Below, in pieces: positions 9,601-62,374 of a stretch of 64,000 nt of DNA. The notes under the pieces are model-generated. The model searched no databases. It was not told the origin of the DNA and was given only the letters and a program-made list of their open reading frames with translations. The DNA lies in assembly GCA_902728285.1 (NCBI GenBank), contig CACVBU010000391.1, forward strand, positions 434,001 to 498,000, read 5' to 3'. A program made the translations under genes and the position numbers. This DNA comes from Clytia hemisphaerica (lineage: Eukaryota > Cnidaria > Hydrozoa > Leptothecata > Clytiidae). Numbering within the stretch: the stretch's first letter is position 1; every line of letters starts with the position of its first letter.

Positions 9601-10112
9601 TTATCGAGATTTCATCATCAATGTGTTCGTGTTATGTGCCACACCAATCGCTTTCGGGCTTGGCAGGAAAGGCTTACGATGTTATCTATGTTCGAAAAGT
9701 TATCTTTGAAATCGATTGATTTGTATGTTGTAAAAAAGCAATTACAATGGGCTGGGCATGTAATGCGTATGTCGTGGGAAAGGTTACCGAGAAAAATGAT
9801 ATCTTGTTGGGTTCGATCTAAAAGGCCCAGAGGTTGTCCAAAGTTTACATATGGTAGATCTATTTCTAAATGTTTGAAAAAAGCTGGTATTGATAAATGT
9901 AATTGGTATGTGATTGCCTCTGATAGACTGAGATGGTGGAAGTTGATTAACAATATTTCGTAGATTTTTATTTTAATAGCACTCATTTATTCTTTAGTTA
10001 TTTATTTCCATTATTTATTTTTATAATTTATGTAGTATATTGTGCAGTGATCTCTGACTTAGGTTAGGGCCTATTCCCATTTTTGGGAAGGTGTATGTCT
10101 TGTCTTGTCTTG
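6611..10112 (+). mobile_element. Apparently full-length APE-type LINE (RTE-like)
   Basis: The element is flanked by a perfect 13-bp target duplication, TCTCTATCGTGTG, at 6598-6610 and 10113-10125. It has a roughly 280-bp 5' leader, one long intact reading frame, a short 3' untranslated region and a 3' tail of TTGTC pentamers (about 10096-10112) where many LINEs have poly-A. The intact frame and perfect duplication indicate a recent insertion. Clade assignment to the RTE-like group rests on the single frame, endonuclease-RT order, small size and microsatellite tail, and needs a phylogeny. Confidence 0.92.
6892..9963 (+). CDS. LINE endonuclease / reverse transcriptase polyprotein
   Basis: The frame stays open from a stop at 6787, but the first ATG is 6892, giving 1023 residues. 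N-terminal apurinic-like endonuclease: Asn16 (QNVRG), Glu46 (LQET), Asp167 and Asn169 (SDCNA), Asp234 (IDHFLV) and Ser258-Asp259-His260 are all present, so the nuclease looks intact. Reverse transcriptase: YRGI, QQCGFRPKRGC, motif A FLDLVKAFDRVP (about residue 626), GVKQGDVLGP, and catalytic YADD at about residues 744-747. The C-terminal part has LLYGAECW and QWAGHVMRM, blocks often seen at the end of RTE-like proteins. The protein would nick target DNA and prime cDNA synthesis there. No frameshift or internal stop. Confidence 0.95.
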   Translation: MVAKKLMKNICFISQNVRGIKSASRLEELFNSLSLRKNVWGMCLQETWRFGHETLDCDKFKLITNGLEKTNDACNRGSQGVGIVLNHEGISAWKAAGYEKHIDYGARIIAIRLCVKDKHKRDVCLFLVSAYAPVGNAPDQEWDDYLEKFSNCINKRRNGDILIIGSDCNASVGCASDNDNGPLGKYGLSHRNNAGLRFLTHLAIHELKVSTTCFTKRLYATWTHPRSKNKHQIDHFLVNAEMFHRIVDAGTCKQVIDSDHGAIMIRLRIMKRLKKKTTPRNRLINLDYTVLNDRTVCYNFCEHVKLNTPNTVTHTEIIKSVSSACHSILPTKPRAQPGWFEANKETLIPLINNRNEAMQRVLRRRTRNSSEKLKHARKKLKREVKIAKNKWIEFHCNNINDFGTKKAWESIKILRGSLAKIRPSVQKQMKKPDGSTCQTPEENDTVFYNHFKNLFDQEGTYDPTVLDEISQHPVHKEYDHPPTDEEIQKTTLKLKNNAPGETGIMSQPLKALLNHPDTRIILRQIIINFWNTEIVPDEWNIGRLIVLPKKGDLSLPKNYRGIMLLEITYKIIANILHARLLPIEEQLDHEQQCGFRPKRGCIDAVFTIKSAIKKRSEHGLESWVLFLDLVKAFDRVPRKLLWGILLKYGVPPKLVNLLTALHKTFAVKIDNNFITDPINNSIGVKQGDVLGPILFTFFITATISSWRIKCSATPCVFMTKNDAQMTGRSFKARGEPISLLDSEYADDTAVVFDNRHDAVVETQSLVHHFSRFGTEIHTGVTEPRQSSKTELLFCAKAPSLYESREDYDKADFSDIILTNNRYIPIVSQFAYLGSIITTNGTDDLEIETRIRKAGNAFGALRKSIFSSCSVDYVTKGKVYSSFVLPILLYGAECWCVTEKLFKLLSRFHHQCVRVMCHTNRFRAWQERLTMLSMFEKLSLKSIDLYVVKKQLQWAGHVMRMSWERLPRKMISCWVRSKRPRGCPKFTYGRSISKCLKKAGIDKCNWYVIASDRLRWWKLINNIS

Positions 10113-26981: not shown

Positions 26982-29900
26982 TCACTCTACATTTCTCAAA
27001 ACTTGAACCAATCCTTCTTTAACTCTCATCTGACGATCTATAGCATAAACCGATTCGTCCGGTCGGGAAACAATCGGTTTGCCATCACTCCATAACCATT
27101 CCGAAACGGGTTGTTGTTGTTGTGCCGAAGCAGCGATTAATCTTGAGTTGTTGTCTTGATCGTTGTGTTGTAAGATGCCAAGGAAAATATGTTGTAACAA
27201 AAATTCATCTCTCAACTTCTTGTTAACTTCGAGCTCGTTGACTTTTTCAAAGCCCATTTGGTGGAACACGTCATCATGTAAGACTTGTATAGTGAATTGC
27301 TTAGCCTTGAGAAGCTCCTTGAAATGTTGTTGAACATCACCAGTGACTTTAACGCATAATCCTTTGACGAAGCAAACTTTATCAACAACCATTTTGCGAT
27401 TTTGTAACAAACCTCTGATTGGACTCTTCTTAAAAAGCGAGTACATGACAGACAAATCTTCGTTGCTCTTCAATGTTTGCATGAGTTTGATAGCAGAGTG
27501 CTTGATGAGGTCATCGATTACAGTGATAGTGAGGTTAGGCCCATAACTTAAGGCTACTTTTACATGGGCATCGTTGATCTTGTGTGAAACCTATGGAAAA
27601 GACGAGAAAATGTGGGTAAAGAGATGAGTGCGTATTGTATTGTAATCGATCTACTCTATAGGAATAGACGATATCGGCTTAACGAAATTCTCCCCGAATG
27701 ATTACCCATGATACATTGCGCAAAAAATTCAGTGAGTCAATATTGTCCGTGAATTTTTTTGCGCAATGCATCATGGGTAATCATTCGGGGAGAATTCGGA
27801 AAGCTGATATCGTCTATTGTAACTCCTTCAGACTCCATCGGCAATTTCCCAATATATATAATGCTGCTAATTTTCGCTGTGGCTAATTTTGATTTTAAGC
27901 GCTAAAGTGAAGAAAAAAGCAGCTTAAATCAACTTATAAAGAAGTCCAATAGTAGATCAGGGATGTCACTTGAAAAATGTTGCGTTGTCAAATTTTTTTA
28001 ATTTTCTTAAAAATACTCTCCCAGGACCTCGCAGTGCACTTTCAGAAAACCTGAAAAGTCCTCCAGAGTCAAACCTAAGTAGCCTACCTGTCCGTTGGGT
28101 TGGATGAAAGGTTGTAAGACAAAATTCTTTTGTTTATTTCCATAGGTGAATGGCTTAAAAGTCATTCGTCCGGTTTTTTTGGTGACATGTCCCAGTATCA
28201 TGTTCTGTAAACTCCTAGGACCAGAGTTCCTGGTGGATTGAAGGTACGTTTTAAATGTGTTGTCTTGTGGACAGAAAATGTTGATAGTGTTTCGAGTTGA
28301 TTTTTTGATGATGGATTTCAAGAGATTCAGATTGTCGAGGTATTTCAAGAAGAGGTTGCAACCAGCTGATTTAGCAATGTTGATAACATCTGTGATCCCA
28401 GAAGCAAGTGGCTCTAAATAATTGTAGAAAAAAAGATATATTTATATAGAGCCTAGCATCAATAACTTAGCAGAAAATTTATAAAACCCATTCCTGAAAA
28501 CATTATTGGGGGACAAAGCCCCCCTCTTAGCCCCCTAACCCCCCGGTAGCTAGCGGCACTATACAAAAGCTACTTTACTCGCGAGTTTGCGATTTAGATT
28601 TCCTTTTACATCTTCCCTTACTGCAGTAAGAATCATCGTTCGTCCCTCTCTTTTGAGATGTCTAATGGTTGGAGGGGGGATAACGGTTCAGTATACAAAA
28701 TACCCTATCTACAATCTGTGACTAAATATTGTGGCAAGAATTCCTTCCCCCCTAGTATCAATGTTGATGGGTGGAAAGGCTGCCAGCATGCTCAGAAAAA
28801 GCTCACATCAACACTGATATTAGTGGGGAGGGGTTTTTCAAGAAAATACCACATATTTTGTCAAGTTGAATGGATTGAAATCTGTGTACGAGGGCAATCT
28901 GTTTTCGATTATTAATACGACCCCCTACCATTCTTACCTTCTTTCACATTAACCGATCGTCTGACTCTCTTTGATTGGTCGAAAGCTGTTCGCAATGCAT
29001 CGATGACTTCTGCGTTGCCTGGCAATAATTTCTAAATGAAAAATTATATTCATTAATTTCTTAATCGAAAAAATAGTGCTATTATTGTCTCTTTCCTTTT
29101 TTTTGAGAAAGAAATACAATTATTACCTTAAAAAAAGAGTATCTTGTTGACCTTTTTTATGCCGGCCCTTATTGGCGTTTTTTTTTTCGTCGTTGGCGTA
29201 ATAAGGGCCAGTGTAAGGGATCGGAATTAAATTAGGGCTGGACTAAATATGGAAAACTTGAGTTTTGGTGTTATAAGGGCCGAAGTAAAAGGGGCCAGTG
29301 CTAAATTAGGTACTGCGTAGGACAGATAAGGAATTTTATGCTTTGGAGCAGCAATCACTGAGTGATCCAAGGTGTCAGTTACTGATATCTATACTTTTAT
29401 TCTACTGCCAACATATCAAATGACAGTGTTTGCATGAGTGAAAAATGTATGCTAATCTGAGATTTAAGGGCCCAAAATATCTATAATACCTCCATTCTCT
29501 TGATAACTTCTTCGTTATTTTCACCAATTTTCTCTTGCATGTTAACATCAGGTTTCAAAGCTTTGAGGTTGGATAACACGTCATTACCATTGTTTTTTCC
29601 CAAAGGTGCTCCTTGCAATAAGTAGTATGGTCCCTGTTGGTGTTTGAGAATGAAAGAAAGTCACTAAACATTAAGTCAACAACGTATATCAAAACGCCTT
29701 CACTCATATAGCTAGAAAAACGTTTATCTGATAGTCCGATGGCGGATTGGCGGCCACCCACGCTAAAGCTTTAAAGATGCGGGCCAATTTTCCATCAGAG
29801 AGGAATGATACAATCACGGACAAAACATTTGAGACAAAGGGGACTTCCCGGCGAAATGCGTTAAACTACAATTGTAAAGTAGAGTTTTAACTCTGAGTTT

Positions 29901-44631: not shown

Positions 44632-47600
44632 TTACTCAAGTCTTCTCAAAACTTGGACTAGTCCTTCTTTAACCCTAATTTGACGGTCGATGACAAAAAC
44701 CGAATTTCCCGATTTTACTACAATCGGTTTGCCATCACTCCATAACCATTCCGAAACAGGTTGTCGTTGTTGTGCCGAAGTAGCGATTAATCTTGAGTTG
44801 TTGTCTTGATCGTTGTGTTGTAATATGCCAAGGAAAATATGTTGTAACAAAAATTCATCTCTTAGCTTTCTGTTTGTCTTCAAGGCAAGGAACTGCAACG
44901 GGTTCATTTTTCCAAAGAAATTATTTTCAACAAGTTGGATGGTGTATTGCTTAGCTTTCAACAAATCATTGAAAAGCTTTCTTAATTTGCCTACGATTGG
45001 TAAACAGATTTTGTCAGTGAAACACACACGATTTACGAATCGATTGCGATGTAGCAGCTTCTGGAGAGGGCTTTTACGGACTAATTCATTCATGACTGAA
45101 AGATTTTTGTTGTTTTCCAAGATTCCTTTTACAGTAGAGGTGATTGGCTGAAGAACTTTGTCGATGATACAGATATTGATGACTCCTTGAGATAAACAGA
45201 TTTTGATGTTGGCATCTTCGATCTTGAATTCAGCCTATTGAGAAATTGGAAGGAAGTAAATGACCTCTCCACATTGACTAAATCTAAGGATAGTTTTGAC
45301 CTATCCCTTGAATAGTGATCGCGTGCTTATGAAGCATTGATAATCCTCTGTTCGGTGACGCTACCTAAACCTGATTAGGTCAAGACGTTTACTCTCCAAC
45401 ATTTTTGCAAGAGGGAAATTCATTTACCAAGTGAATGGCAGCAACAAGGAGGTGAATTGAGACAATAGAGAGAAGAATAAAACTACAAGACCTCTCATTA
45501 TTATCATATCATGTCAAAGATGAAATTTGAAAAGAAAACATAAAAGAATTTTGAAATGAAAAAAAACTAACATTTGCTTTCGCAGACTTTGGTTGAGCAG
45601 CATGCAACATCATTTTACTTCCATCCATCAATGATTTAAACATCATTCCATTTCGGCCAAACTTTTTCGTCAAATGGTGCAATAACACGTCGGGCGCCAA
45701 TTGTGATTTCTCCATAGAAATGTCTTGTGGGCAGAACAATGTCAATGGTTTATGATGTGTGGTCATAGAGTTCATAACCTGCTTCCAGAGATTGTTTTGC
45801 TTCAATTGTTGGATGAACAAATGACAGCCAGACGCTACTACGATTGGTAGGATTTCTTCGAACGGATCTAAAACAAAATGAGCATTATTTATATTGAACC
45901 ATTTCAAACCAGCGAGTAGTTTGCGTCGAATAAAGATGGGCTCTTCCAGAAAAAGATAAACCGTATACACCCTATTGAGGAAGTACATTTCCGTTCCAAG
46001 GGGGTAAGGTTTGATATGTGGAGGAATTCCATAGGAAGATACAAAAATCTGTCAGAAATAACTGGAATTCCATGGAAGTAAATTTTTAAATCAGAGGGGT
46101 TTAAACCTAAAATTACCTGGAATTCCAGGGGGTTAGAGCATTTCTAGCCACAGAGGGATAGACCTCCTCAACAGGGGTATACGGTTTTTTCTGGAAAATC
46201 CCGATATTATAGTCTTCGAAATCAATCAAACAAAGAGGATAAAAGAAATTAAATTACTAGCTCAGAAACCTGGCAACGAAAATCTGTATGCTGAAACCCA
46301 TCTTTCTAATTTTCATGACGGCGATGGCTTCAGCAACGGGTTTCGTCGCCGGGGAGATCTAGCACAGTTTTCTTTTTTGAAGCTTCGAATCTTGATCATC
46401 GGCTTCGCGACAATGACAATCCTAATTACCGTAGCAATCAGGTTTACAAGAACTCGCGAATTTGATACACGTACCTTTGTTAAGCGACCTCCTTGCTCTT
46501 TTGGTCACAATATTATTGGCAGAAGCCAGAGCTTTCTTGATTGATTGCAATAAGGCAGATTGACCATTCAAACGTTTCTGAAATCAGAGAAGATAAACGT
46601 TTAGCGGTAAAGTGACTGAAGCGATTTTGAATAACCCGCAGTTTTGATCCGCGAAATCGAGGACGGCATAATTGATGACTTGAGGCCAAAAAGTTTTTCG
46701 AAGATCAAACGGTATTTTGCCTAATGTCAATATATTAAAGGGGAAAACTTTTCACCGGGGAAACTTGGTAACAACTCCCTTGAAGTTAACCAGAAAGGTT
46801 TTTCGCTGGGAAAAACTTTGTCACTTGCCTAAAGAATTTCGTCACTTTTCCACAACAAAGTTTCCCCTATAAAGTACAGTTGACGCTCTCTAATTCGATC
46901 TTCAAGGGGAATCGGATTTTCATCGAGTAAGGGAGCTTATTGAATGAGGGAGCGTCGTTTATGAGAGTTTCTTGTTGACGGCGACTTTAAATTTCATCGA
47001 ATAAGGGAGCCTATCGAATAGTAGAACGTCGAATTAGAGAGCATCAACTGTATACCAAAAGAATTATTAAGGAAGTAACCTCGATGGTGCTGAGAAGATC
47101 ATCGTTACTGAGTGATTTCAAATTCAACGTTGGTTCCATCTTTGGGAAAACCAAACCTTTGGAGAATCCTTGATTTTCACTGGTGTTCGATGGTAACCTC
47201 ATTCCTTGCATCAGATAAGTGGGACCCTATAATATTCAAAAGACGACATTTTTCCGTTGAAGTGAAAAGACAAAAAAAAAACAGAGTTTCGACTCTAACT
47301 AATTGTCTATAGGTGCAAAAAAGACTGGGACGGTTTTAGGGTGGTAACACGGACAAAAATATGCCCACGCGGCAATTGGCGGCTAAGGTCGAAAAGATGT
47401 ATTGTATTATAGCTGAGGAATTCATAAAAAAAGTGAACTCTTTACAAAAAAGGCACATAAAGTGTAGTATATGCAAAGTTCAAGGACTTCCATCATGAAG
47501 GAAAACAAAAAAATCCTACCGATCCAGCTTGGAAGATATTGATGTAAGTTTGTTGCGGTTGACAACACGCACTGCATTTGTCGATGCCTGCAAATCAAAC

Positions 47601-50600
47601 AAACACATTATATTTATGACCAAATCATATCAATATTTTTAGAATCATCTCAGGTCTACCAAACTGTTCAACCTAGTCAAGTAAATAATATCTCTTAAGA
47701 ACTAAGAGGCAAAATTTTCAACAAATTTTGCTTTAGAGTGTATTATTTGGGCTTTGAAAGCATAACCTTAAAATATATTCTTTTCTATGATATAGTAACG
47801 AGGCGAGGGAGAAAATTGTTCTTTCTTTGTGTTTAAAGAGGCTGTGCAAACAAATGGTGAAAGATACGTTAAATAATGTCCTTCAAGGCACAAAAAGTGT
47901 AATTGAAAGGTGAATTACCTGGACACTTTGGAGCAGGCGTGATACACGGCGTGGTCTGTGGTTTGGGTGCTGAAAAAACGATAATCGAACATAGACTTTT
48001 ATTGTTGTTGATTCTTTCTATTCATGGTATGCATCACTGCAATGTCCTTGACATCACACCTTAGTCCCAACAGCTGATTGACTCAGCTGTTGGGTCCGTT
48101 GAAGACATTGCAATGGTGCATATCATGAATATAGTAAGTAAGTAGTAAAGTTTGCGACTGCGGCCGAGGGCGACCCAAAGGTTCTCATCTCTAGCTGTAA
48201 CTCGAAGGTAGGGGAGGCCGCCACTTCTTTCCCTGGATTGCTCTACTCTTTCTATATATCATAGATGGTTGGTAAAAGTTAAAAAAAATCTTATTCGAAA
48301 TTCAAGTTTGGAGTGAATTATGTTGTTATCAGAAACTACAAAACTGAAGCAGCTTATAAGGTAAAATATTTAGTACTTGTCGTGTGTAAGGTCGTCGTAG
48401 GGATAGTCATTGTCGTTGTCGTAGTCGGGAAAGTCATTGTCATTGTCGTTGTCATTGTCGTTGTGGTAGGGGAAGTGGTGGTAGGGGTGGTGGTGGTAGG
48501 GATGGTTGTGTTAGGGGTGGTGGTGGCTGTGGTAGTTGTGGTAGGGGTGGTTGTGATAGTGGTAGGGGTGGTGGTTGTAGTAGTGGTAGGGGTGGTTGTG
48601 GTGGTAGGGGTGGTTGTAGTAATGGTAGGGGTGGTTGTGGTGGTAGGGGTGGTTGTAGTAGTGGTAAGGGTGGTTGTGGTGGTAGGGGTGGTGGTAGTTG
48701 TCGTAGGGGTCGTTGTTGTAGGGGTGGTAGTCGTTGTCGTTGTAGTTTCTAAGTAATTGGGTGAAAAGCCGTCTCAGTTGTGTTGATTTTCCTTTCAATA
48801 AGGTCTCTTTCACACTTTTTCATATTATTCACAACCTACACGTTTTTTTATAAGAACATCCAAAATTTTTGAAGCCTTCGTATGTTCTTAACTTTTTTAG
48901 TTTTAAGCCTAAAAATCTTCGTAACATGTTCTTATTTTCACCATTTTTTGAGTATTTCTGTCCATTTTCCTAAGAAAATAGGTGTTTGAGGGTGCAAAAA
49001 GCTTTAAAATGTTCTGAACTTGTTCTTAACATTGTGGCCATCGAAGCTATGATCTTATGTAGCTTGTTCTGATAAAAAAACGTGTATAAGTGCCGTTTTA
49101 GAGAAAACATTTAATTTTTCTTTACTTTTCTTTACCACCACATTTATAATTTATGCCCTAAATTTTAGGAGGAAAATTTAGTCAAAACTTTGAGGGAGAC
49201 TTTAAATTTACCTTAATAAAATTAAAAGAAATAAAGCTATGTAAGAAAAGACGAGCACTACTTACTTGTGGTTGTAGTAGTCGAAGTCGTCGTGGAGGTT
49301 GTTGTGATTATCAAATTTGCTGAAAATATCAAAACATGAACGGATCAAAAATATCTTCATGGTTTGTGTTTTGAAATCTAAAACGCATATTAATCTACAA
49401 AGAATGCAAAAGCTGTGAAGAATTAAAATATTTGAATGAATTTCATTTCAGGTGTTGAATAAAAAAAAAATACATCAAAAGAGTACCCCATGAAAAGATT
49501 AAAAGATTTTTCGAAAAGTTCACATCAAATGTAAAGATAGAAATTAAATGTTTACCTAATTTACAGGAAGCATCTGTAACGGTTTTTAAAAACTGTGGTT
49601 GTATCAATTCATCAAACGAAGAGGAAATGTAAATATTGTCAATAGAACCTGCAATCCCTTGCAGTTCAACAGCCTTGATTCCATCTCCTATACCGACGGC
49701 CAACACTTTGTAGCCTTGTGATCGAAGTTCTTCAGCCACAACTGCAGGATTTTCAGCACCAGCGTCTTGAGTTTGTGAGCCGTCTGTCAACAAAACCACA
49801 ACTTTGCTCACACCAGGTCTGCCTCCATTTGCGATGGAAAACATTTGGCTCTGAGTCAGACGAAGAGCTTTATCGATTCTTGTCGTGTATCCCATCAGTG
49901 GAATGTTGTCAACAGCATCATTGAAGCTCGCCAAATCGTAATGGTCGTTCAGTTTGACGCTGTGTTCTGCGTCAAAACTGAATGTCACCACTCCTGCTCT
50001 CGCACCTTGTTCGCTGACACCAAAAGTCGCTGCCAAAGCCTTCAAGAAGCTCTTTTCTTTGCCGTAATCGTCTTTCAAACTGCCTGATGAGTCGAGCACG
50101 AATCCAACATCAACTTTGACGTCACAGCTTGGTTTCACTTCCCTCTTAGCTAAAATAGAAAGAACATTCGAAAATCTTCATTCTAAAGCTGTTCAAATGG
50201 TACGGTATGTGATTCACCTGCTCTTCTCTGGTGGAAGAAAATCTTGTAGAGTGAGAATCGAATCCAAAATACAATATTCCCCTTTTTTGAAGACTACAAA
50301 ACAACAGTCATCCGTGAAAACCAAAACACAGTATAACAAAAGGAGATCTTTCTAAAAAGATTCCACCCAACCTACCTTCTTTGCATCCAGCTTGGTTGAG
50401 TTTGTCCAAAAATTCTTGACTGATAAGCTCGTCGAAAGTCGCTGCAGAAAACACATTTGATTGAGCACCAGTAATGTGAGCCAACTCTGTACTGTTGACG
50501 CCACCTCCGATACCGACGGCCAACACTTTGTAGCCCTGTGATCGAAGTTCTTCAGCCACAACTGCAGGATTTTCAGCACCAGCGTCTTGAGTTTGTGAGC

Positions 50601-53600
50601 CGTCTGTCAACAAAACCACAACTTTGCTCACACCAGGTCTGCCTCCATTTGCGATGGAAAACATTTGGCTCTGAGTCAGACGAAGAGCTTTATCGATTCT
50701 TGTCGTGTATCCCATCAGTGGAATGTTGTCAACAGCATCATTGAAGCTCGCCAAATCGTAAACGGTCGTTCAGTTTGACGCTGTGTTCTGCGTCAAAACT
50801 GAATGTCACCACTCCTGCTCTCGCACCTTGTTCGCTGACACCGAAAGTCGCTGCCAAAGCCTTCAAGAAGCTCTTTTCTTTGCCGTAATCGTCTTTCAAA
50901 CTGCCTGATGAGTCGAGCACGAATCCAACATCAACTTTGACGTCACAGCTTGGTTTCACTTCCCTCTTGGCTAAAATAGAAAGAACATTCGAAAATCTTC
51001 ATTCTAAAGCTGTTCAAATGGTACGGTATGTGATTCACCTGCTCTTCTCTGGTGGAAGAAAATCTTGTAGAGTGAGAATCGAATCCAAAATACAATATTC
51101 CCCTTTTTGAAGACTACAAACAACAGTCATCCGTGAAAACCAAAACACAGTATAACAAAAGGAGATCTTTCTAAAAAGATTCCACTCAACCTACCTTCTT
51201 TGCATCCAGCTTTGGTTGAGTTTGTCCAAAAATTCTTGACTGATAAGCTCGTCGAAAAGTCGCTGCAGAAAACACATTTGATTGAGCACCAGTAATGTGA
51301 GCCAACTCTGTACTGTTGACGCCACCCTCCGATACCGACGGCCAACACTTTGTAGCCCTGTGATCGAAGTTCTTCAGCCACAACTGCAGGATTTTCAGCA
51401 CCAGCGTCTTGAGTTTGTGAGCCGTCTGTCAACAAAACCACAACTTTGCTCACACCAGGTCTGCCTCCATTTGCGATGGAAAACATTTGGCTCTGAGTCA
51501 GACGAAGAGCTTTATCGATTCTTGTCGTGTATCCCATCAGTGGAATGTTGTCAACAGCATCATTGAATCTCGCCAAATCGTAATGGTCGTTCAGTTTGAC
51601 GCTGTGTTCTGCGTCAAAACTGAATGTCACCACTCCTGCTCTCGCACCTTGTTCGCTGACACCGAAAGTCGCTGCCAAAGCCTTCAAGAAGCTCTTTTTC
51701 TTTGCCGTAATCGTCTTTCAAACTGCCTGATGAGTCGAGCACGAATCCAACATCAACTTTGACGTCACAGCTTGGTTCACTTCCCTCTTGGCTAAAATAG
51801 AAAGAACATTCGAAAATCTTCATTCTAAAGCTGTTCAAATGGTACGGTATGTGATTCACCTGCTCTTCTCTGGTGGAAGAAAATCTTGTAGAGTGAGAAT
51901 CGAATCCAAAATACAATATTCCCCTTTTTGAAGACTACAAACAACAGTCATCCGTGAAAACCAAAACACAGTATAACAAAAGGAGATCTTTCTAAAAAGA
52001 TTCCACCCAACCTACCTTCTTTGCATCCAGCTTGGTTGAGTTTGTCCAAAAATTCTTGACTGATAAGCTCGTCAAAAGTCGCTGCAGAAAACACATTTGA
52101 TTGAGCACCAGTAATTGGAGCCAACTCTGTACTGTTGACGCCACCTCCGATACCGACGGCCAACACTTTGTAGCCCTGTGATCGAAGTTCTTCAGCCACA
52201 ACTGCAGGATTTTCAGCACCAGCGTCTTGAGTTTGTGAGCCGTCTGTCAACAAAACCACAACTTTGCTCACACCAGGTCTGCCTCCATTTGCGATGGAAA
52301 ACATTTGGCTCTGAGTCAGACGAAGAGCTTTATCGATTCTTGTCGTGTATCCCATCAGTGGAATGTTGTCAACAGCATCATTGAAGCTCGCCAAATCGTA
52401 ATGGTCGTTCAGTTTGACGCTGTGTTCTGCGTCAAAACTGAATGTCACCACTCCTGCTCTCGCACCTTGTTCGCTGACACCGAAAGTCGCTGCCAAAGCC
52501 TTCAAGAAGCTCTTTTCTTTGCCGTAATCGTCTTTCAAACTGCCTGATGAGTCGAGCACGAATCCAACATCAACTTTGACGTCACAGCTTGGTTTCACTT
52601 CCCTCTTGGCTAAAATAGAAAGAACATTCGAAAATCTTCATTCTAAAGCTGTTCAAATGGTAACGGTATGTGATTCACCTGCTCTTCTCTGGTGGAAGAA
52701 AATCTTGTAGAGTGAGAATCGAATCCAAAATACAATATTCCCCTTTTTGAAGACTACAAACAACAGTCATCCGTGAAAACCAAAACACAGTATAACAAAA
52801 GGAGATCTTTCTAAAAAGATTCCACACAACCTACCTTCTTTGCATCCAGCTTGGTTGAGTTTGTCCAAAAATTCTTGACTGATAAGCTCGTCGAAAGTCG
52901 CTGCAGAAAACACATTTGATTGAGCACCAGTAATGTGAGCCAACTCTGTACTGTTGACGCCACCTCCGATACCGACGGCCAACACTTTGTAGCCCTGTGA
53001 TCGAAGTTCTTCAGCCACAACTGCAGGATTTTCAGCACCAGCGTCTTGAGTTTGTGAGCCGTCTGTCAACAAAAACCACAACTTTGCTCACACCAGGTCT
53101 GCCTCCATTTGCGATGGAAAACATTTGGCTCTGAGTCAGACGAAGAGCTTTATCGATTCTTGTCGTGTATCCCATCAGTGGAATGTTGTCAACAGCATCA
53201 TTGAAGCTCGCCAAATCGTAATGGTCGTTCAGTTTGACGCTGTGTTCTGCGTCAAAACTGAATGTCACGACTCCTGCTCTCGCACCTTGTTCGCTGACAC
53301 CGAAAGTCGCTGCCAAAGCCTTCAAGAAGCTCTTTTCTTTGCCGTAATCGTCTTTCAAACTGCCTGATGAGTCGAGCACGAATCCAACATCAACTTTGAC
53401 GTCACAGCTTGGTTTCACTTCCCTCTTGGCTAAAATAGAAAGAACATTCGAAAATCTTCATTCTAAAGCTGTTCAAATGGTACGGTATGTGATTCACCTG
53501 CTCTTCTCTGGTGGAAGAAAATCTTGTAGAGTGAGAATCGAATCCAAAATACAATATTCCCCTTTTTGAAGACTACAAACAACAGTCATCCGTGAAAACC

Positions 53601-56600
53601 AAAACACAGTATAACAAAAGGAGATCTTTCTAAAAAGATTCCACCCAACCTACCTTCTTTGCATCCAGCTTGGTTGAGTTTGTCCAAAAATTCTTGACTG
53701 ATAAGCTCGTCGAAAGTCGCTGCAGAAAACACATTTGATTGAGCACCAGTAATGTGAGCCAACTCTGTGCTGTTGACGCCACCTCCGATACCGACGGCCA
53801 ACACTTTGTAGCCCTGTGATCGAAGTTCTTCAGCCACAACTGCAGGATTTTCAGCACCAGCGTCTTGAGTTTGTGAGCCGTCTGTCAACAAAACCACAAC
53901 TTTGCTCACACCAGGTCTGCCTCCATTTGCGATGGAAAACATTTGGCTCTGAGTCAGACGAAGAGCTTTATCGATTCTTGTCGTGTATCCCATCAGTGGA
54001 ATGTTGTCAACAGCATCATTGAAGCTCGCCAAATCGTAATGGTCGTTCAGTTTGACGCTGTGTTCTGCGTCAAAACTGAATGTCACCACTCCTGCTCTCG
54101 CACCTTGTTCGCTGACACCGAAAGTCGCTGCCAAAGCCTTCAAGAAGCTCTTTCTTTGCCGTAATCGTCTTTCAAACTGCCTGATGAGTCGAGCACGAAT
54201 CCAACATCAACTTTGACGTCACAGCTTGGTTTCACTTCCCTCTTGGCTAAAATAGAAAGAACATTCGAAAATCTTCATTCTAAAGCTGTTCAAATGGTAC
54301 GGTATGTGACTCACCTGCTCTTCTCTGGTGGAAGAAAATCTTGTAGAGTGAGAATTGAATCCAAAATACAATATTCCCCTTTTTGAAGACTACAAACAAC
54401 AGTCATCCGTGAAAACCAAAACACAGTATAACAAAAGGAGATCTTTCTAAAAAGATTCCACCCAACCTACCTTCTTTGCATCCAGCTTGGTTGAGTTTGT
54501 CCAAAAATTCTTGACTGATAAGCTCGTCGAAAGTCGCTGCAGAAAACACATTTGATTGAGCACCAGTAATGTGAGCCAACTCTGTACTGTTGTGACGCCA
54601 CCTCCGATACCGACGGCCAACACTTTGTAGCCCTGTGATCGAAGTTCTTCAGCCACAACTGCAGGATTTTCAGCACCAGCGTCTTGAGTTTGTGAGCCGT
54701 CTGTCAACAAAACCACAACTTTACTCACACCAGGTCTGCCTCCATTTGCGATGGAAAACATTTGGCTCTGAGTCAGACGAAGAGCTTTATCGATTCTTGT
54801 CGTGTATCCCATCAGTGGAATGTTGTCAACAGCATCATTGAAGCTCGCCAAATCGTAATGGTCGTTCAGTTTGACGCTGTGTTCTGCGTCAAAACTGAAT
54901 GTCACCACTCCTGCTCTCGCACCTTGTTCGCTGACACCGAAAGTCGCTGCCAAAGCCTTCAAGAAGCTCTTTTCTTTGCCGTAATCGTCTTTCAAACTGC
55001 CTGATGAGTCGAGCACGAATCCAACATCAACTCTGACATGACAGGTTGGTTTAGGTATTGGCGTTGCTGTTTAAAAGAGTTTATTCAAGATAAGCAAATG
55101 AATTATTATGAGTTCCCCATAGCTCTTTGTGGTAGCGTATTTTGGAATTGTTGTCATTGGAAAAAATAATTTGGTTTCATTGCTAATAAAGGCCTATTTT
55201 ACTGTTTGGTAAATTCCGTATTATGCTTGTGACGAGTGAATAAGACTGTATTTACAACCTTCTTTGCAATTATTTTGGTGAGTTTGTGATCTTATTGAGA
55301 GCATAACATAAGTGTCGTTTTATTTTACCACTGGTTGCTTTTTAAAAAAGATAATAGGGGAAAAATCCATTTCAAGTCTCTTGTATAGAGGGAGAAATGC
55401 ATAGTTAATTATGTGTTTAAACTGGAATTCTTCAATGGTTAAAATATTAGAAGTTTCTGACACTTTAAGACACTTTCCTGATATGAAATGTGTGTCTGAT
55501 AAGAAACGGGAACATTTATGTAAAAATAAAACTTTTAAGCAGGATCAAACATTTAAATAATATTCTACTTGTTGTAGTTGTTGTAGTTGTTGTAGTTGTA
55601 GTGACTTTCTTGCACGTGTTTCTGGTGACTTGTTTCATGAAGACATCGCTTTTCAAAGAGGCGGCATCCTTTGAAGTGAAGACACGTTCTGGATCACGTG
55701 TGATGGCTGATAAATCGGCTTCGGATGCTTTGTCTCCAACAGCGATGGCAAAAATGTCGATTCCTATTGGTAGATATAAGAACAATAATACATAAAATCT
55801 TACTTATGGTAATTCTTGATATTCACGACGTTATCTTTTATACGGAAACACTTGAAATTGCCGGGCGTTTGCCACCAGTTTAATCTTAATGCCCAGTGTT
55901 TTTCGGGTGTTTCCGTTTAAAAGATTACGTCATGGATACCAAGAGTATCTAGTTTTTAAAGATGGCGAAAAAGAAAGATGGTTACATAGAACTAGGACAA
56001 TAACCTTGGGGGGGCCTTAAGGTTCCTTTTTCCAAGTTCACAAAGTGCACCGTAAGGGTTGAAATGAACAAAGATGAGAAAATGTTCACTCTAAGGGTGT
56101 AAACTCTGACCATATTTTGCCTTAAAATGGTCAAAATGTTCAAGAAATTACACCGACAGGGTCGATTTTTTGCCCAAATTTGGCTAAAATTTCTCTGAAC
56201 TGTAAGGATCCGATTTCAAAGGCCTGATTCTGTTCTGCACACATGGTCGTTTTTTTAATAAACTTTCCCCTCCCCTGGAAACAGCAGTAGTTCACATAAT
56301 TCTTCACATATATGGTCCCTGGGACCAGCAATGTTAACAGTTTTCTTCCGTATTTTTGGAGACATATCAACAGCTTCCACGAAACATGAATCATGAAATC
56401 ATCATACCTCTATCAACCATTGGTTGTGATGCAACGACAGGGTCGTATTGGACTTTTCCATCAGGGCTTTGTTTGGGGTTTTGATTACCATCGGTGATCA
56501 AGAAGACAATCTTAGATACTCCATCACGTTCGCCTGAAAAGATGGATAAAGATTTAGAGATTATCTAAAATTCTACCGCTGTCTTATGCTTATCAAAGGT

Positions 56601-59600
56601 GGCTTGTTTCTTATAACAATATTTGTTAGTTTGAAAACAAACTACTAAACTAAGGTCTGGAATATAATTTGAACTCCCGACATTCGCATTGGAAGCACAT
56701 TCGCGAACATCATCGGCTTTCGCAAAGTTTTGCTAAGAGTCATTTAAGGACTGAGCAATCGTAAAATATATTGGCATTTTTTGTGTATTTTAACATTTTT
56801 CAGAATTTAAAGCTCGGGCGAAAATTGCAATTTTAGTACTTTTACTTTGTTCCATCGAATTTTTTTATTTGGGAGGGGTTCAAGGGACCAACAATTTTAT
56901 AGAAACATTCAGATTAAACGGTTAGTAATTAAACGACTTTCCAACCAAGGGGACCAATCTTTAAGTTCGAACTACAGGGAAATTCGAATAATGGAGATTC
57001 GATTTTAGAGAAAGTTGACTGTATAACGAAGAGAAAAAGTTTGCCTATCTAGCTTAGTACAATGCTGGACAAAAGGTTGTAGACAAATGAAATTTCAGTA
57101 AAAAATGATGAGAAATAGACCCGGGGGGGGGGGGCAGCTGGGCAAAAGGACCGACGGGTATGTGCGGGCCCTAAGGGTACCTTTTCCAATATGTTTAAAA
57201 TGCACTGTAAGGGTCGGAAAAACTAGAGATGCACTGTAAGGGTAGAAATTTCAGAAAATTCTTGAAAAACCTAGATATTTTGACCAAAAATGCTAGAATT
57301 TTGACCATTTTTTGCACGAAAGGAATCGAAAATTTGGGGGAAAATGCACTCTAAGGGTATGATTTTCACTGACTTTTGCTGCACTGTAAGGGTGCAATTT
57401 TAAAAGCCAATTTTTGGCCCGCACATACCGTCAGTCCGCAAACCCAGTGCCCCCCCCCCCGGGGAAATAGAGCAAAATGACTCTTCAATGTGTCTGAAAG
57501 GGGATGGAAGTTAAGAAAAACACCTTTGAAGTCGTTGCATTGCTTTTGAATTGCTTTTGAGGAAACCACAAGCAAAAAATCAGCCTTTTGATACTGGTGT
57601 AAGCCAGTTAATCAAGCCCTTGTGAATTGCCCTTCCGGTTAGACTGCAGTGGGTGACTTTGAAAGACTTTGGTTTGGAAAGCACCCAGAACTTGTTTTTG
57701 ATCGATATTGAAGTATTTTGCAAATATTGCAGAAGTCTACGAACCTTTTGTCCAGCATTGTACCATGATTTTAATTTGAAAGTTATACCAATCTATTTAA
57801 CGTCTAGTTAAGTGGGTGAGCTACTTTAATGGGATATCTTTTCGCTGGGATTAAATTTAGCAGATTTCGCGTATTCGGGTCTCATCAGGTCTCATCTGCG
57901 AAATTTAGTCTGAGTGGAAGTTTGGAAAGGCCTTATCTGCGAAATATTTTTTGTCAAAACATAAAAAAATGTCACAATGTTTACTGGTATCAAAGAAAGC
58001 TTATTTCAACGACCAAAATGCATAGTTTGGTACAAAATTATAAAAATATTGTCTCCAAATAGTGTCATCCACGAAATTAAGTTCCCGCAAAATCTTAAAA
58101 TTTCGCTGATGAGCTCAACCGCATAATAAAATCCCCATCAAAATTTATCCTATTAAAGTAGACATTGATAACAATAACGTTTCTCTTGACGGTTGAAAAA
58201 GAAACAGCGAGGTTCACATACCTGATTGTTTCGTAAACAATTTCTCATTGGCTAATTGGAAAGCCAAATCGATTCTCGTTCTGTACCCTTTGAAAGGAAG
58301 ACGTTCAATTCTTCTTGCCATCTCTTGAAGATCAAAAACTTCATTGAACTTAAGCTGTACCGAAGAGAACTCGGCAGAATCACTGAAAATGATAGCCCCA
58401 TAATTCGATGCTTCCCTTGAGACATTGAAACTGAAAAAGAATAAAGAAAATTTATAATAGCATTAGGAACGTTATTGATGGTGGAAATTCCTAGCATCTA
58501 ATGGTATTTTTTTCTAGAAAAAATCAAAGTGTCATGTATCATTGTATTGTGGAAAAGAACACTAGATCCCCACCTTTATTGGGAGAAAAAGAAACTTTGA
58601 GAAAATTTACGAAGGTTTGAGGTAGAATAAATAACAATTCCCGTTTTACCTAGCAATAATATATTTCACAAATTGCAATTGTGACAAATATTCATTTCGT
58701 ATACTCCCGGAAGCATCAATCAAAAACGCAACATCAGCAATAATCTCACAGCCTGGGTCGGTGCGTTGCAAATTGTCAGGTGCAAAACGATCTATAGAAG
58801 TAAAAAAGAAAAATAGTGTTTTTTAAAAGACGGTAGTCCTGAGGTCACTCAGGGCCCTCTATAGTTTGAATGTATTAGTTTTTGGTGTATTTTCCAGCAA
58901 TGTAGAGGCCTTAGCTTTCAAATTTTCCCATGGCTGGCCCCACAGATTTATAAAGCCATATGTCTATATGTCGTGCTTTAAGCTCTTCCAAGCAAAAAAA
59001 AGTGAATATCGCAAAAAATATTGCTGCTATTGTTTTAGAAAATCGCGGGTTTCTGATTGGTCAAGCGCTGCAATTCTATTGTAATGTCACGTGACCTAGG
59101 TAGGATTTCCGACCTAGGTAGGATTTCCTACCTAGCCCCGACACACTTTTCAGCCAAAGCTTAACATCTAGCCCTTCGGGTTTTATAAATCTATGGTTGA
59201 CCCTCGCGGTGTCACTAAAGTTCAACCCCCATGCCCTAATGTCATAATGGCAATGGCTTGGAAGCATATATAAAATTATGATGCACACAGGTATCACTAC
59301 CACTACGCTTCTATCAGAAAGCACCCTGTTATCAGCCTTCTTATTGCTTTATTGTTTCAGGGCTAAAAGTGTTTTGAAAATCATAAGTTTACCATCGTAA
59401 AAAATGTTACAAGTTGCCTTAAACACTCTTTCCACTCTTTTTGATAATCTTGCCCTTAGCTATACAAAATAAGTGTTTTTTTCTTCTTTTAGTGTACACA
59501 TTTTTTTCTTTATAAGTAACAAGGTTGCCAAGGCTCCAGCCCTGAAAATAGCCAAATTTTTTTACTATCTCGTAAAGTAAAAGCTTTCTAGATATGACAA

Positions 59601-60979
59601 ACGATAGCCCTAAACCAAAAAGGCATAAACATGGTATAATATCATGGTAGGTCAAAGTAAATTTTTCTAAAAATGAGCTAGGATGCTAAGCAACCCCAGG
59701 GCTGACCCGAAAATTGGAGTTGCTTATAAAAAAGAAATTGTAATTTAGCAAGGCTCTACTTCTCCATATCTTGATAGATATATTATGAAAATTCAATAAA
59801 TATGACAGGATCAATATTGATAAAGGTAAGACCTAGGAGATTTAGCTGAAGAAGATCAATACTGCAGACATTTTTTATAAATTACGTCACGAACATAACT
59901 AGCCTCGTATTCAAAAAATTACCGTGGTGATTATGTCCCTTGAGACATTAAATGATTTTTTTATAAATAGAAAGTAGTTTTAATAAAATCCGCTGGGAGT
60001 TAATCACCATGGCAATAATTTCAAAACGAGACAAGTGATGTTCGTAACGTAATTTATGAAAAGGTCAATTATTTCTTTGATAAGTTTGAGTCAGTTGTGA
60101 GTCAAAGAATGTTTTATGTAAACATTGGATTAAATCAAAACTCACAAAATTGTCTGAGTTTTTGTTAAACTAAACAAACGCTGTTTCGCTATCACAATTT
60201 TGAGCCGATTAAGATAATTCCTTTCGCGAAAAAAATATGACACAAACAATCTATTTTTGACGCGCAAAGAAAAAAAGGTGTAATCCACAAAAATAGAAGG
60301 ACTTTTCAATGTCTTAGGGACTTTTCTTAGTTATCCTTACTCCTCAAGATAAATTGACAACAGCCTTCTGACAACAGCCTCTCGATAGGCACCCAGGGGG
60401 TCACTCGGTTTCTAAACGACGTCATGTGCCGCCAAAATCGCTTTCAAAGTCAGACTCTTACAGTGCAGCCCTTGAGCAGTGAAAAGGTACCCTTACAGTG
60501 CATTTTACCAAAAGTTTTTTACCCTTACAGTGGGGTTTGATGTCATAACTTTTTTTGCTAAAGCCACTTGAAAATGAGCCTGATATGTCAACACAATGTG
60601 CAAAACAAATTAAATTGAGTGCGAGTCAAAACTATAAAGATACATCAGATTTCAGATTTTCACTGTAGCTGAAATCTTTTGTAGTTCACTCCATCAAACC
60701 CTTACAGTGCATTTTGAGGGTCTCGAAAAACCTACCCTTAAGGGCGGCACCGTATTACCCCCCCCCCGCGATAGACAACAGAGCTGGGTTCAGATTAAAT
60801 GTCGCTTACTATAAGATGCATCAGCAATCATATCAACAATAACTTCGTATCCAGCCTTCCCCGCAAACATTTCTTCCAGAGCTCTGACCATCAAATAATG
60901 ATGTTGATTATTCTCTCCGACCAAAACTGCAGCTTCGTTTGTCGCTCCTTTGTCAATGCCGATCACATAAAGGTAGTTT
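44632..60979 (-). CDS. Gene B: multi-vWA mucin-FAS1 protein, 5' end outside window
   Basis: Exons in the window: 60810-60979, 58650-58791, 58222-58430, 56408-56533, 55569-55763, seven vWA exons between 55066 and 49556, then 49266-49319, 48377-48748, 47919-47969, 47520-47587, 47080-47226, 46475-46577, 45572-45867, 44632-45234. The first four (170, 142, 209, 126 bp) have exactly the lengths and phases of their gene A counterparts. Order: end of vWA1, vWA2 (DASGS intact), seven vWA modules, Thr/Pro stalk of about 140 residues, KCSACC motif, RARR-S furin-like site, two FAS1-like domains, stop. The signal peptide and first exons of the A model are not found up to 64000. Predicted role as for A, with a far longer adhesive region. 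Five vWA copies contain frame breaks as sequenced. Confidence 0.85.
46877..47050. mobile_element. TA-flanked CAGTTGAC MITE in gene B intron
   Basis: CAGTTGACGCTCTCTAATTC at the left and GAATTAGAGAGCATCAACTG at the right, flanked by TA at 46875-46876 and 47051-47052. Same family as 13539-13718. Confidence 0.75.
48019..48131. mobile_element. Short foldback, ATTCATGATATG family
   Basis: TATTCATGGTATGCATCACT mirrors the right end GCATATCATGAATA. CAACAGCTGA / TCAGCTGTTG form the inner hairpin. Confidence 0.65.
48377..48748 (-). CDS. Gene B exon: Thr/Pro mucin-like stalk, 124 codons
   Basis: Read on the minus strand, the exon is almost pure ACN codons with regularly placed CCT, giving PTTTTTTP-like repeats, a pattern of dense O-glycosylation. 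The exon is phase 1-1 and 372 bp long, against 36 plus 132 bp for the two stalk exons of gene A, so the stalk has expanded in B. The plus-strand frame of Val/Gly over the same bases is its antisense shadow. Minisatellite-like DNA makes length variation between individuals likely. Confidence 0.85.
48839..49084. mobile_element. TA-flanked TATAAGAAC MITE in gene B intron
   Basis: CACGTTTTTTTATAAGAACA at the left and GATAAAAAAACGTG at the right, with TA on both sides. Third well-preserved member of the 17571 family. Confidence 0.75.
49556..50149 (-). CDS. vWA exon copy 7 (3'-most), intact, divergent C-terminus
   Basis: 594 bp, open throughout. It carries DVGFVLDSSGS (metal site DxSxS), YTTRIDKA (Thr ligand) and LLTDGSQTQD (Asp ligand), so metal binding looks intact. 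The last ~45 residues (GIAGSIDNIYISSSFDELIQ region) differ strongly from the other copies, while the first ~150 are nearly identical to them. Confidence 0.92.
50376..50970 (-). CDS. vWA exon copy 6, one frame break
   Basis: 595 bp. The sequence AAATCGTAAACGGTCG near 50755 replaces AAATCGTAATGGTCG of the other copies, adding one base and splitting the frame in two. All metal-ligand motifs are present on one side or the other of the break. Confidence 0.85.
51195..51791 (-). CDS. vWA exon copy 5, five indels
   Basis: 597 bp with single-base gains near 51211 (GCTTTGG), 51253 (GAAAAG), 51326 (ACCCTCC) and 51697 (CTTTTTC), and a loss near 51776 (TTGGTTCAC). Four of the five lie in homopolymers. 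This copy also has ATCTCGCC where others have AGCTCGCC (Ser to Arg in DLASF). Confidence 0.85.
52016..52609 (-). CDS. vWA exon copy 4, intact
   Basis: 594 bp with an open frame from acceptor to donor, 198 codons equivalent: the reference copy for the array. DSSGS, TRIDKA and LTDGSQ metal-site motifs are intact. A local change (AATTGGAG for AATGTGAG) turns His to Pro in the AHITGAQ stretch. Confidence 0.93.
52835..53429 (-). CDS. vWA exon copy 3, one-base insertion
   Basis: 595 bp; an extra A in AACAAAAACC near 53073 breaks the frame just at the LLTDG metal-ligand stretch. Otherwise matches copy 4. Confidence 0.85.
53654..54246 (-). CDS. vWA exon copy 2, one-base deletion
   Basis: 593 bp; CTCTTTCTTTGCC near 54152 lacks one T of the other copies, breaking the frame after DDYGKEK. 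The remaining 185 codons are open. Confidence 0.85.
54471..55066 (-). CDS. vWA exon copy 1 (5'-most), two-base insertion
   Basis: 596 bp; TGTTGTGACGCC near 54590 has an extra GT, shifting the last ~45 codons out of frame. The exon start is unique, reading TPIPKPTCHVRVDVGF where other copies read KREVKPSCDVKVDVGF. It follows the exon ending vWA2 (55569-55763), phase 1 to phase 1. Confidence 0.85.
55823..55935. mobile_element. Small hairpin in gene B intron
   Basis: ACGACGTTATCTTTTATACG and CGTTTAAAAGATTACGTC pair, as do CGGAAACAC / GTGTTTCCG. Origin unclear. Confidence 0.5.
57120..57463. mobile_element. G-run-capped element with 8-bp TSD GAAATAGA
   Basis: CCCGGGGGGGGGGGGCAG at the left and its inverted partner at the right, with GAAATAGA at 57112-57119 and 57464-57471. 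The interior has CACTGTAAGGGT repeats, the reverse orientation of the 11095 family. A truncated relative is at about 56008-56160. It lies in the gene B intron between the exons at 58222 and 56533. Confidence 0.88.
59876..60058. mobile_element. Foldback element, ACGTCACGAACAT family
   Basis: TTATAAATTACGTCACGAAC at the left pairs with the right arm GTTCGTAACGTAATTTATG; inner ATTACCGTGGTGATTATG / TTAATCACCATGGCAAT also pair. One half matches the unit repeated at 1544-2505. Confidence 0.65.
60391..60768. mobile_element. G-run-capped element, imperfect 8-bp TSD
   Basis: ACCCAGGGGGTC at the left and a run of ten or more C at the right, flanked by CGATAGGC (60383-60390) and CGATAGAC (60769-60776). 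The interior repeats CTTACAGTGCA. It lies next to the gene B exon at 60810. Confidence 0.72.
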
Positions 60980-62374
60980 CTACAAAGAGAGGAGTACAAA
61001 CTGTATTTAAGAACATAAGGTCTCGATTGCAAAAATATTAAGAACAAGTTAAGAACATTTTAAGGCTCTATGGACTCTCAGACACCAAATTTCTCAAGAA
61101 ATTACACAAAAACACTCATGAGAATGGTGAAATTAATTAAGAACAGATTGAGAACATTTTTAGGCTCCATAGAGCACCCAATCTCTTAGGAAATTGCACA
61201 AAATTACTCACAAAATATCAAAATTATCAAGAGTTTTTGAGGTTGGTGCTGCTTCTGAGGATTGAACCGTGCGCTTTTCTTTGTCTTCATGTGGTACATT
61301 TTTTCGAAACCCGGCGTAGATTTTATTTTCATTCCGGAGTTTGTGTGAAAACCATGCTGGCCACGTGTTTTGGATGGGAAATAAGTGGCTCCTCTGGCCT
61401 CCAGGAATTTCTAGTCCCTCCTGGGGCTATAAATTCAACGAAAAGAACCGCAGTAATCACACCACTGTGGCACAGACCCGCTGGGACTCAACCCCAGTAA
61501 AAAATTTCGTCCCCGCAGGGAAAATTACCTTACAATTTTAGTCCCACTGAGAAATTCAATGTAAAAAATTGTACTCCAAAACCACCCCACTACCTAGAAA
61601 AACACAGGTCGAAATCATATCGACGCTGTGCCGACCAATCTAAATTCTATTCAGCGCACAATCAACGCAGAGAAAAGTAACCATGACGACCATCCAAGAT
61701 CTTGAATAAAGTTCAAAGTTGATACCTTTATTCGTTGAAAACACAATTCAAAAATGTCATCAATGCTTTTTAAAAAGAGTCAGTGATAGAGAATCATAAC
61801 ATAAAGTCTGTCTATTATTTCGATTCAATCAAAATGGCATTTCCATAATTAATAGTTTAGTAACTACTGTTATACATTTGGGAATCATGTATAAGATTTC
61901 TTTCGAAAGAAACTCATTGGCCCAGCGCTAGCGATAGGGCCTTTCATTTGCAACTTTCCGTCCTCATCCTTCCGCTGTCTGTCCGTCCGTTTTGGTAGAA
62001 ACGGCACTTAAAACCAGTAACACACTTTTTAATTTTGCCGTCTGAAGAGGGAAAAGCTTGCTAAAGTCGGATACTGGCTATAAAAGATATATTTTCTGAT
62101 TCCGCGCTCCTTCAAAACAATTTTCAAAACAAAACAAGATGGCGGTCGAAGCGAGGAGGTTGATTCATACTTTCTTGAACATTTTCTTTGCTTTAGTGGT
62201 CAAGAGACTTTCAAACCAAAGAAATTTTGTAATGATTTTTCTTTATAAACCTTTTTCAACATTCTGTCATATCTTATAGTCTTTGCTCAAGTTTTAATAA
62301 AGTTTTATGAGTGAAAATTCTACCTAAAAATCACCTTCATTTTTTAGCTTCTTGTTTTCAAAAAGATTTTATTT
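60980..62374. other. Presumed gene B intron or flank
   Basis: In gene A the matching intron is only 283 bp; here no counterpart of gene A exons 1-4 is found up to 64000. Contains a TATAAGAAC-type fragment (about 61005-61215), a CCCCACTGG-type fragment (61461-61600) and otherwise unrecognised DNA. Confidence 0.4.

Follow-up and report, generated by a model that had tools for sequence, protein, structure and literature searches.

A gene on the minus strand of the hydrozoan Clytia hemisphaerica carries seven consecutive, nearly identical exons, each encoding one vWA domain. It was found in a stretch of 64,000 nucleotides of contig CACVBU010000391.1 (C276:434001-498000, hereafter the window) and is called gene B here, with its tandem paralogues being genes A and C. 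Taking all evidence together, gene B probably belongs to a tandem family of matrix or adhesion genes of the vWA-Thr stalk-fasciclin type, with a real, recently homogenised vWA array that was acquired when an A-type gene recombined with a C-type gene, and with frame breaks that are errors. The searches covered one genome assembly (417 Mb, 951 contigs). A GFP profile gave no match, a negative that carries little weight. No second copy (haplotig) of the region for comparison of alleles was found among the candidates scored (6 and then 40 of 11614).

An array of nearly identical single-exon vWA domains

The seven units lie at 49556..55066, with unit 1 beginning at 55066 and unit 7 finishing at 49556; both outer coordinates are those given in an initial annotation of this DNA, which had been made from the sequence alone. 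The spacing from start to start is 817-822 bp, in good agreement with the approximately 819 bp proposed there. We aligned the seven units and compared each of them to the majority, which gave a consensus exon of 594 bp and a short intron. All seven exons have an AG acceptor and a GT donor with phase 1 at both ends, and the exons just before and just after the array are likewise in phase 1. Whole units can thus be gained or lost without breaking the frame, as had been suggested. The description of every unit as a 594-bp phase 1-1 exon was correct for the phase and for the length of the consensus, but the individual exons vary between 593 and 597 bp (596, 593, 595, 594, 597, 595 and 594 bp, in order from unit 1 to unit 7). 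What had been overlooked are the frame breaks: units 1, 2, 3, 5 and 6 leave the consensus frame. The exons of the array, all on the minus strand, are:

54471..55066, minus strand: unit 1, 5' end unique; 2-base insertion, frame shifted near the 3' end; no stop, ends out of frame
53654..54246, minus strand: unit 2, frame shifted by a 1-base deletion
52835..53429, minus strand: unit 3, frame shifted by a 1-base insertion within a T run
52016..52609, minus strand: unit 4, 594 bp, frame kept throughout; Pfam VWA match 2.5e-35
51195..51791, minus strand: unit 5, five 1-base indels, net +3, contains a stop
50376..50970, minus strand: unit 6, frame shifted by a 1-base insertion
49556..50149, minus strand: unit 7, 594 bp, frame kept throughout; 3' end unique; Pfam VWA match 1.4e-35

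Shifted by one unit and compared with itself, the array is 98.8% identical over 4569 aligned columns, so that chance is no issue here. Units 2-6 are 99.5% identical, gaps aside, while the 5' end of unit 1 and the 3' end of unit 7 are unique, as expected if the array grew by exchange between units. Together with the presence of arrays of seven, nine and five times two exons at three loci (see below), this identity supports the view that the units were amplified or homogenised recently.

Units 4 and 7, the two that were scanned as proteins, matched Pfam VWA (PF00092) along almost all of the domain with 122.7 and 123.5 bits, far above the cut-off of 23.8 bits. Metal-binding vWA domains of the metal ion-dependent adhesion site (MIDAS) type are recognised by a DxSxS motif and by Thr and Asp metal-site motifs. 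All three MIDAS-type motifs and two flanking Cys codons are present in each of the seven units. By their codons the gene B units are MIDAS-type vWA domains, and metal binding is predicted.

Related arrays at other loci

In gene A, a tblastn search with unit 4 detected no such exon between the last exon of the second vWA domain (vWA2) and the Thr stalk. The contrast between genes A and B that had been drawn from this holds for gene A but is incomplete, since the third tandem paralogue, gene C, and a locus on another contig, C508, have arrays as well. Gene C is located just outside the window on the same contig (C276:508-528 kb) and contains nine such exons, namely unit X, which comes first and is more distinct, followed by eight units with a spacing of 818-832 bp. 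The consensus exon of this array is open, but most of the individual exons are frame-broken. At C508:656-672 kb at least 16 vWA exon stretches were found, and of the 16 taken 15 are free of stops. Within this locus (C508:660510-668178) a 1572-bp repeat that contains two different vWA exons is present five times, with 99.8-100% identity among the copies. Downstream on the same strand two clear FAS1 domains are encoded (9.2e-16 and 6.3e-22; 58.6 and 78.5 bits).

A tree of the units was calculated from 31 exon rows, 25 of them different, including 14 rows from C508. The seven gene B units cluster together (100/99), as do eight of the nine gene C units (98/98), and B and C units form a common cluster (100/99); 12 of the 14 C508 rows cluster apart (90/96). 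This clustering, which is mostly by locus, suggests that the units of each locus evolved in concert or were amplified there separately and recently.

Multi-vWA sequences were also seen elsewhere in the genome. At C577:214610-227125 a single open frame of 6677 amino acids contains ten vWA matches and is a giant one-exon multi-vWA coding stretch. Another multi-vWA cluster, with 21 vWA exon matches on one strand, is located at C939:508450-597275.

Frame breaks in the arrays

Frame-breaking indels of 1-2 bases are present in five of the seven gene B exons, leaving units 4 and 7 as the only ones in frame throughout. In the whole array 27 cells differ from the majority; 13 of them are indel bases, which stem from 12 events, and 14 are substitutions. 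A run of at least two identical bases is touched by ten of these 12 events, compared to 16% expected for random insertions. Errors in homopolymer length often persist in repeats after short-read polishing, according to an excerpt of the Polypolish article (PMC8812927). The indel bases are distributed between exons (ten) and introns (three) at densities of 2.5 and 2.3 per kb compared, respectively. There is nearly one gap per mismatch in the gene B array, whereas paralogue matches outside the arrays show 0.11-0.29, although this yardstick is a rough one, mixing matches from exons, introns and the low-complexity stalk.

Among the 11 substitutions in exons, read by hand, seven are synonymous and four change the protein, and three of the latter adjoin another change (two are adjacent to each other in unit 4, one lies beside the insertion in unit 6). 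With neutral expectations for the synonymous fraction taken from the C consensus exon, seven or more out of 11 has a probability of 0.004-0.016. For the substitutions standing clear of other changes seven of eight are synonymous (P 0.0002-0.001). Selection that tolerates frameshifts while removing amino acid replacements is implausible, and residual sequencing error fits instead. The frame breaks in gene B are probably residual errors of the long-read assembly, and the true array would be an in-frame string of vWA domains. The paralogue exons used for the trees are free of stops, but they were picked from BLAST matches and are thus a biased control.

In the gene C array, five exon sites have a substitution common to at least two of the eight units, all of them synonymous, compared with 11 such sites in the intron, although the intron is shorter (Fisher P 0.0007). 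Of the 29 indel events in the C exons, 27 occur in a single unit. These data bear on the alternative that the indels are real and that the B and C arrays are decaying, with only two B units in frame and the rest being non-coding debris that is spliced around or degraded. Such pseudogene decay was set aside because of the pattern of indels and substitutions, and we regard it as unlikely: in gene B the indels are almost as frequent as the substitutions, which differs from the (rough) ratio outside the arrays, the changes common to several C units are silent while the C indels are nearly all private, and every splice site and every MIDAS-type codon of the B array is intact.

Some observations nevertheless fit decay better and count against assembly errors. 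Five of seven exons in B and most exons in C are frame-broken in a single assembly, and the near-identical copies at C508, taken from the same assembly, carry almost no such errors, which is poorly explained by error. If all 11 exon substitutions (seven synonymous) are counted and not only the eight clear ones, the case against decay becomes weaker. By our own count gene C has 32 private exon substitutions, 21 of which change the protein, and private changes in C are denser in exons than in introns. Most of the private exon substitutions cluster beside indels, as read errors would, but as decay would too.

It might also be that the number of units itself is an artefact, with an assembler looping on noisy reads and thereby multiplying one or two real units. 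The absence of any B substitution relative to the majority that is common to two or more units would agree with this. It is difficult to reconcile, however, with the unique outer ends of units 1 and 7, with the groups of C units that have common intron markers, and with three loci that are unlike each other in period and composition; we therefore consider it very unlikely.

Gene B is a mosaic of A-like and C-like parts

A comparison covering seven segments of gene B with its neighbours revealed two halves of different affinity. The segments from the end of the first vWA domain (vWA1) and from vWA2 are 82-95% identical to gene A at the nucleotide level and 56-69% to gene C, whereas the segments behind the stalk and at the 3' side reach 89-99% identity with C and 59-71% with A. 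The array is located at the point where A-like switches to C-like. The features outside the array, in the direction of transcription, are:

60802..61032, minus strand: exon at the end of vWA1 (placed by position and by eye), A-like; without a Pfam match
58649..58795 (match bounds), minus strand: vWA2 exon a with a DASGS motif, A-like, 82% nucleotide identity to A and 69% to C
58217..58444 (match bounds), minus strand: vWA2 exon b, A-like, 83% to A and 61% to C; Pfam VWA match 1.6e-5
56403..56549 (match bounds, not exon), minus strand: vWA2 exon c, A-like, 95% to A and 63% to C
55569..55763, minus strand: last exon of the multi-exon vWA2, including a brief run of Thr, both ends in phase 1; A-like, 94.9% nucleotide identity to A over 177 bp
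49266..49319, minus strand: short Thr-rich exon following the array, both ends in phase 1
48377..48748, minus strand: open, Thr-rich exon of the stalk, both ends in phase 1
47520..47588, minus strand: conserved Cys-containing post-stalk segment, C-like, 99% to C and 71% to A
45569..45868, minus strand: 3' segment a, C-like, 92% to C and 59% to A; fasciclin-like only via its A and C counterparts
44635..45228, minus strand: fasciclin-like segment b, C-like, 89% to C and 69% to A; Pfam FAS1 0.0055, below the cut-off

Trees were calculated for five paralogues (A to E), using four segments for the 5' set and the post-stalk segment plus segment b for the 3' set, with segment a left out. In the 5' tree A and B group together (100/100 with DNA, 99/98 with protein), and a grouping of B with C is rejected (p-AU 0.002 with DNA, 0.008 with protein). 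In the 3' tree B, C and D group together with A and E outside (89/97 with DNA, 94/98 with protein). Paralogues D and E, located on C687, have vWA2 and fasciclin-like exons, and tblastn yielded no array match in them. Along the transcribed strand the gene order is C-B-A, which is what one unequal crossover between C and A would leave, a hybrid between its parents.

The initial annotation had the modules added at an A-type junction. This part of its interpretation is not supported, since gene B is A-like in its 5' half but C-like in its 3' half, and C already has an array. As the whole 3' half is C-like, the array is explained more simply if B recombined with a C-type gene. Judged from these sequence comparisons, gene B most likely owes its array to such a recombination and not to an insertion at the A junction; most simply, the array would have arisen in a C-type gene and then reached B by recombination. 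Gene conversion of the 5' half of B by A would result in the same picture.

The opposite direction would be that the array was inserted de novo into gene B, then an A-like gene, at the junction of vWA2 and stalk, and that C obtained its array from B. This junction is phase 1 on both sides, and the unit searches found no array matches in A, D and E, both of which would suit an insertion. But the C-like part comprises the entire 3' half of B and not just the array, which is the reason why we set this scenario aside. In addition, the first unit of C (X) is distinct and stands apart from its other eight units, and the locus C508 with its clear FAS1 domains has the same type of exon, so that the module looks older than gene B. 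An insertion into an A-like gene is highly improbable.

Not all data fit the acquisition from a C-type gene equally well. In the 3' tree a grouping of A and B is not rejected with DNA (p-AU 0.287) and weakly rejected with protein (0.041), and B and C group together with protein only (91/92), the DNA tree being unresolved here. In the fasciclin-like exon 220 bp (B 44643-44862; A 26993-27212) are 88% identical between A and B, compared to 69% for the exon overall, and in the segment comparison a stretch of 232 bp was 87% A-like, suggesting that conversion has blurred the mosaic. Furthermore, the first C unit X is an exception to the clustering by locus, as it sits weakly beside the B units (83/68).

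Domain architecture and comparison with known systems

The 3' halves of genes A, B, C and D yielded weak FAS1 matches, and all of them are below the Pfam cut-off of 22 bits (B 17.4 for segment b, C 19.1 and 16.0, D 15.2, A 18.9 and 15.4), which speaks against the fasciclin part of our reading. Segment a of gene B has no FAS1 match in Pfam, and segment b has no match among the sequences of solved structures. Among genes A to D and C508, clear FAS1 domains of the kind seen in FAS1 adhesion proteins are the two at C508.

The best match among sequences of solved structures was collagen VI alpha-3 (whole-chain E 1.9e-39). One-exon vWA domains are a feature of collagen VI as well. In its N-terminal string ten vWA domains follow each other in a row like beads, and a conserved MIDAS is absent from most vWA domains of collagen VI, as described in an excerpt of one article (PMC3919171). 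Compared with the N-terminal vWA strings of collagen VI (alpha-3 and alpha-4 to -6), the gene B units differ in being nearly identical and in having complete MIDAS-type motifs, and no Gly-X-Y repeats were found in the scanned regions. A run of six or more Gly-X-Y triplets is present neither in C276:424-538 kb nor in C508:620-700 kb; the scan required X and Y not to be Gly, thus missing runs with Gly at these positions, and gene ends may lie outside these regions. Without a collagen repeat in the scanned regions, the genes were not filed as collagen VI.

The second-best match was the mussel protein PTMP1 (two stretches, E 3.7e-38), and like collagen VI alpha-3 it is a protein of the extracellular matrix. 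We know of no array of identical exons and of no fasciclin part in PTMP1. In kind, the arrays resemble tandem exon arrays under concerted evolution, which likewise have exons of symmetric phase, unique outer ends and units that are alike within a locus. Relatives were found by tblastn neither in viral contigs nor in prokaryotic genomes, and the literature searches, which covered one open-access library and were judged by titles and opening lines of abstracts, revealed no such vWA-fasciclin array.

Other features of the window

At 6790-9960 on the plus strand the window contains an open frame of 1057 amino acids that by eye resembles the endonuclease and reverse transcriptase of a long interspersed element (LINE). 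A tandem repeat with a period of 357 bp (2.6 copies, 97% matches) is located at 1586-2505.

Possible mechanism and meaning

In the mechanism we propose, an A-type and a C-type gene would have recombined and so given gene B its array, and unequal crossing-over and gene conversion between units would then have altered their number and kept them alike. The product would be secreted or exposed at the surface. In it, identical vWA domains, all with a MIDAS and a disulphide bond that closes the domain, would form a string placed on a Thr-rich, probably glycosylated stalk that is followed by fasciclin-like domains. Such a string would offer many identical metal-dependent sites for ligands, and its length could change by whole domains. 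Variation in unit number between individuals is plausible. The observation made in the initial annotation is partly confirmed and its interpretation partly supported.

The mechanism, with symmetric exons, unequal exchange and concerted evolution, is well known, and the arrays described here are a good case of it since it is shown at three loci of one genome. They also contain a warning, because frame-broken exons in near-identical long-read arrays can be errors, and the pattern of silent sites can help to discriminate between error and decay. A more far-reaching possibility, which we put forward with considerable doubt, is that a secreted vWA-stalk-fasciclin family varies its number of identical metal-dependent adhesion domains by frequent unequal exchange within and between genes, so that individuals would differ in bead counts and hybrid genes and the family would act as a length-variable adhesion or recognition system. 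Should the arrays prove to be in frame and to differ between individuals, they would allow one to measure how domain number alone tunes adhesion, one type of exon having been amplified at three loci of a single genome.

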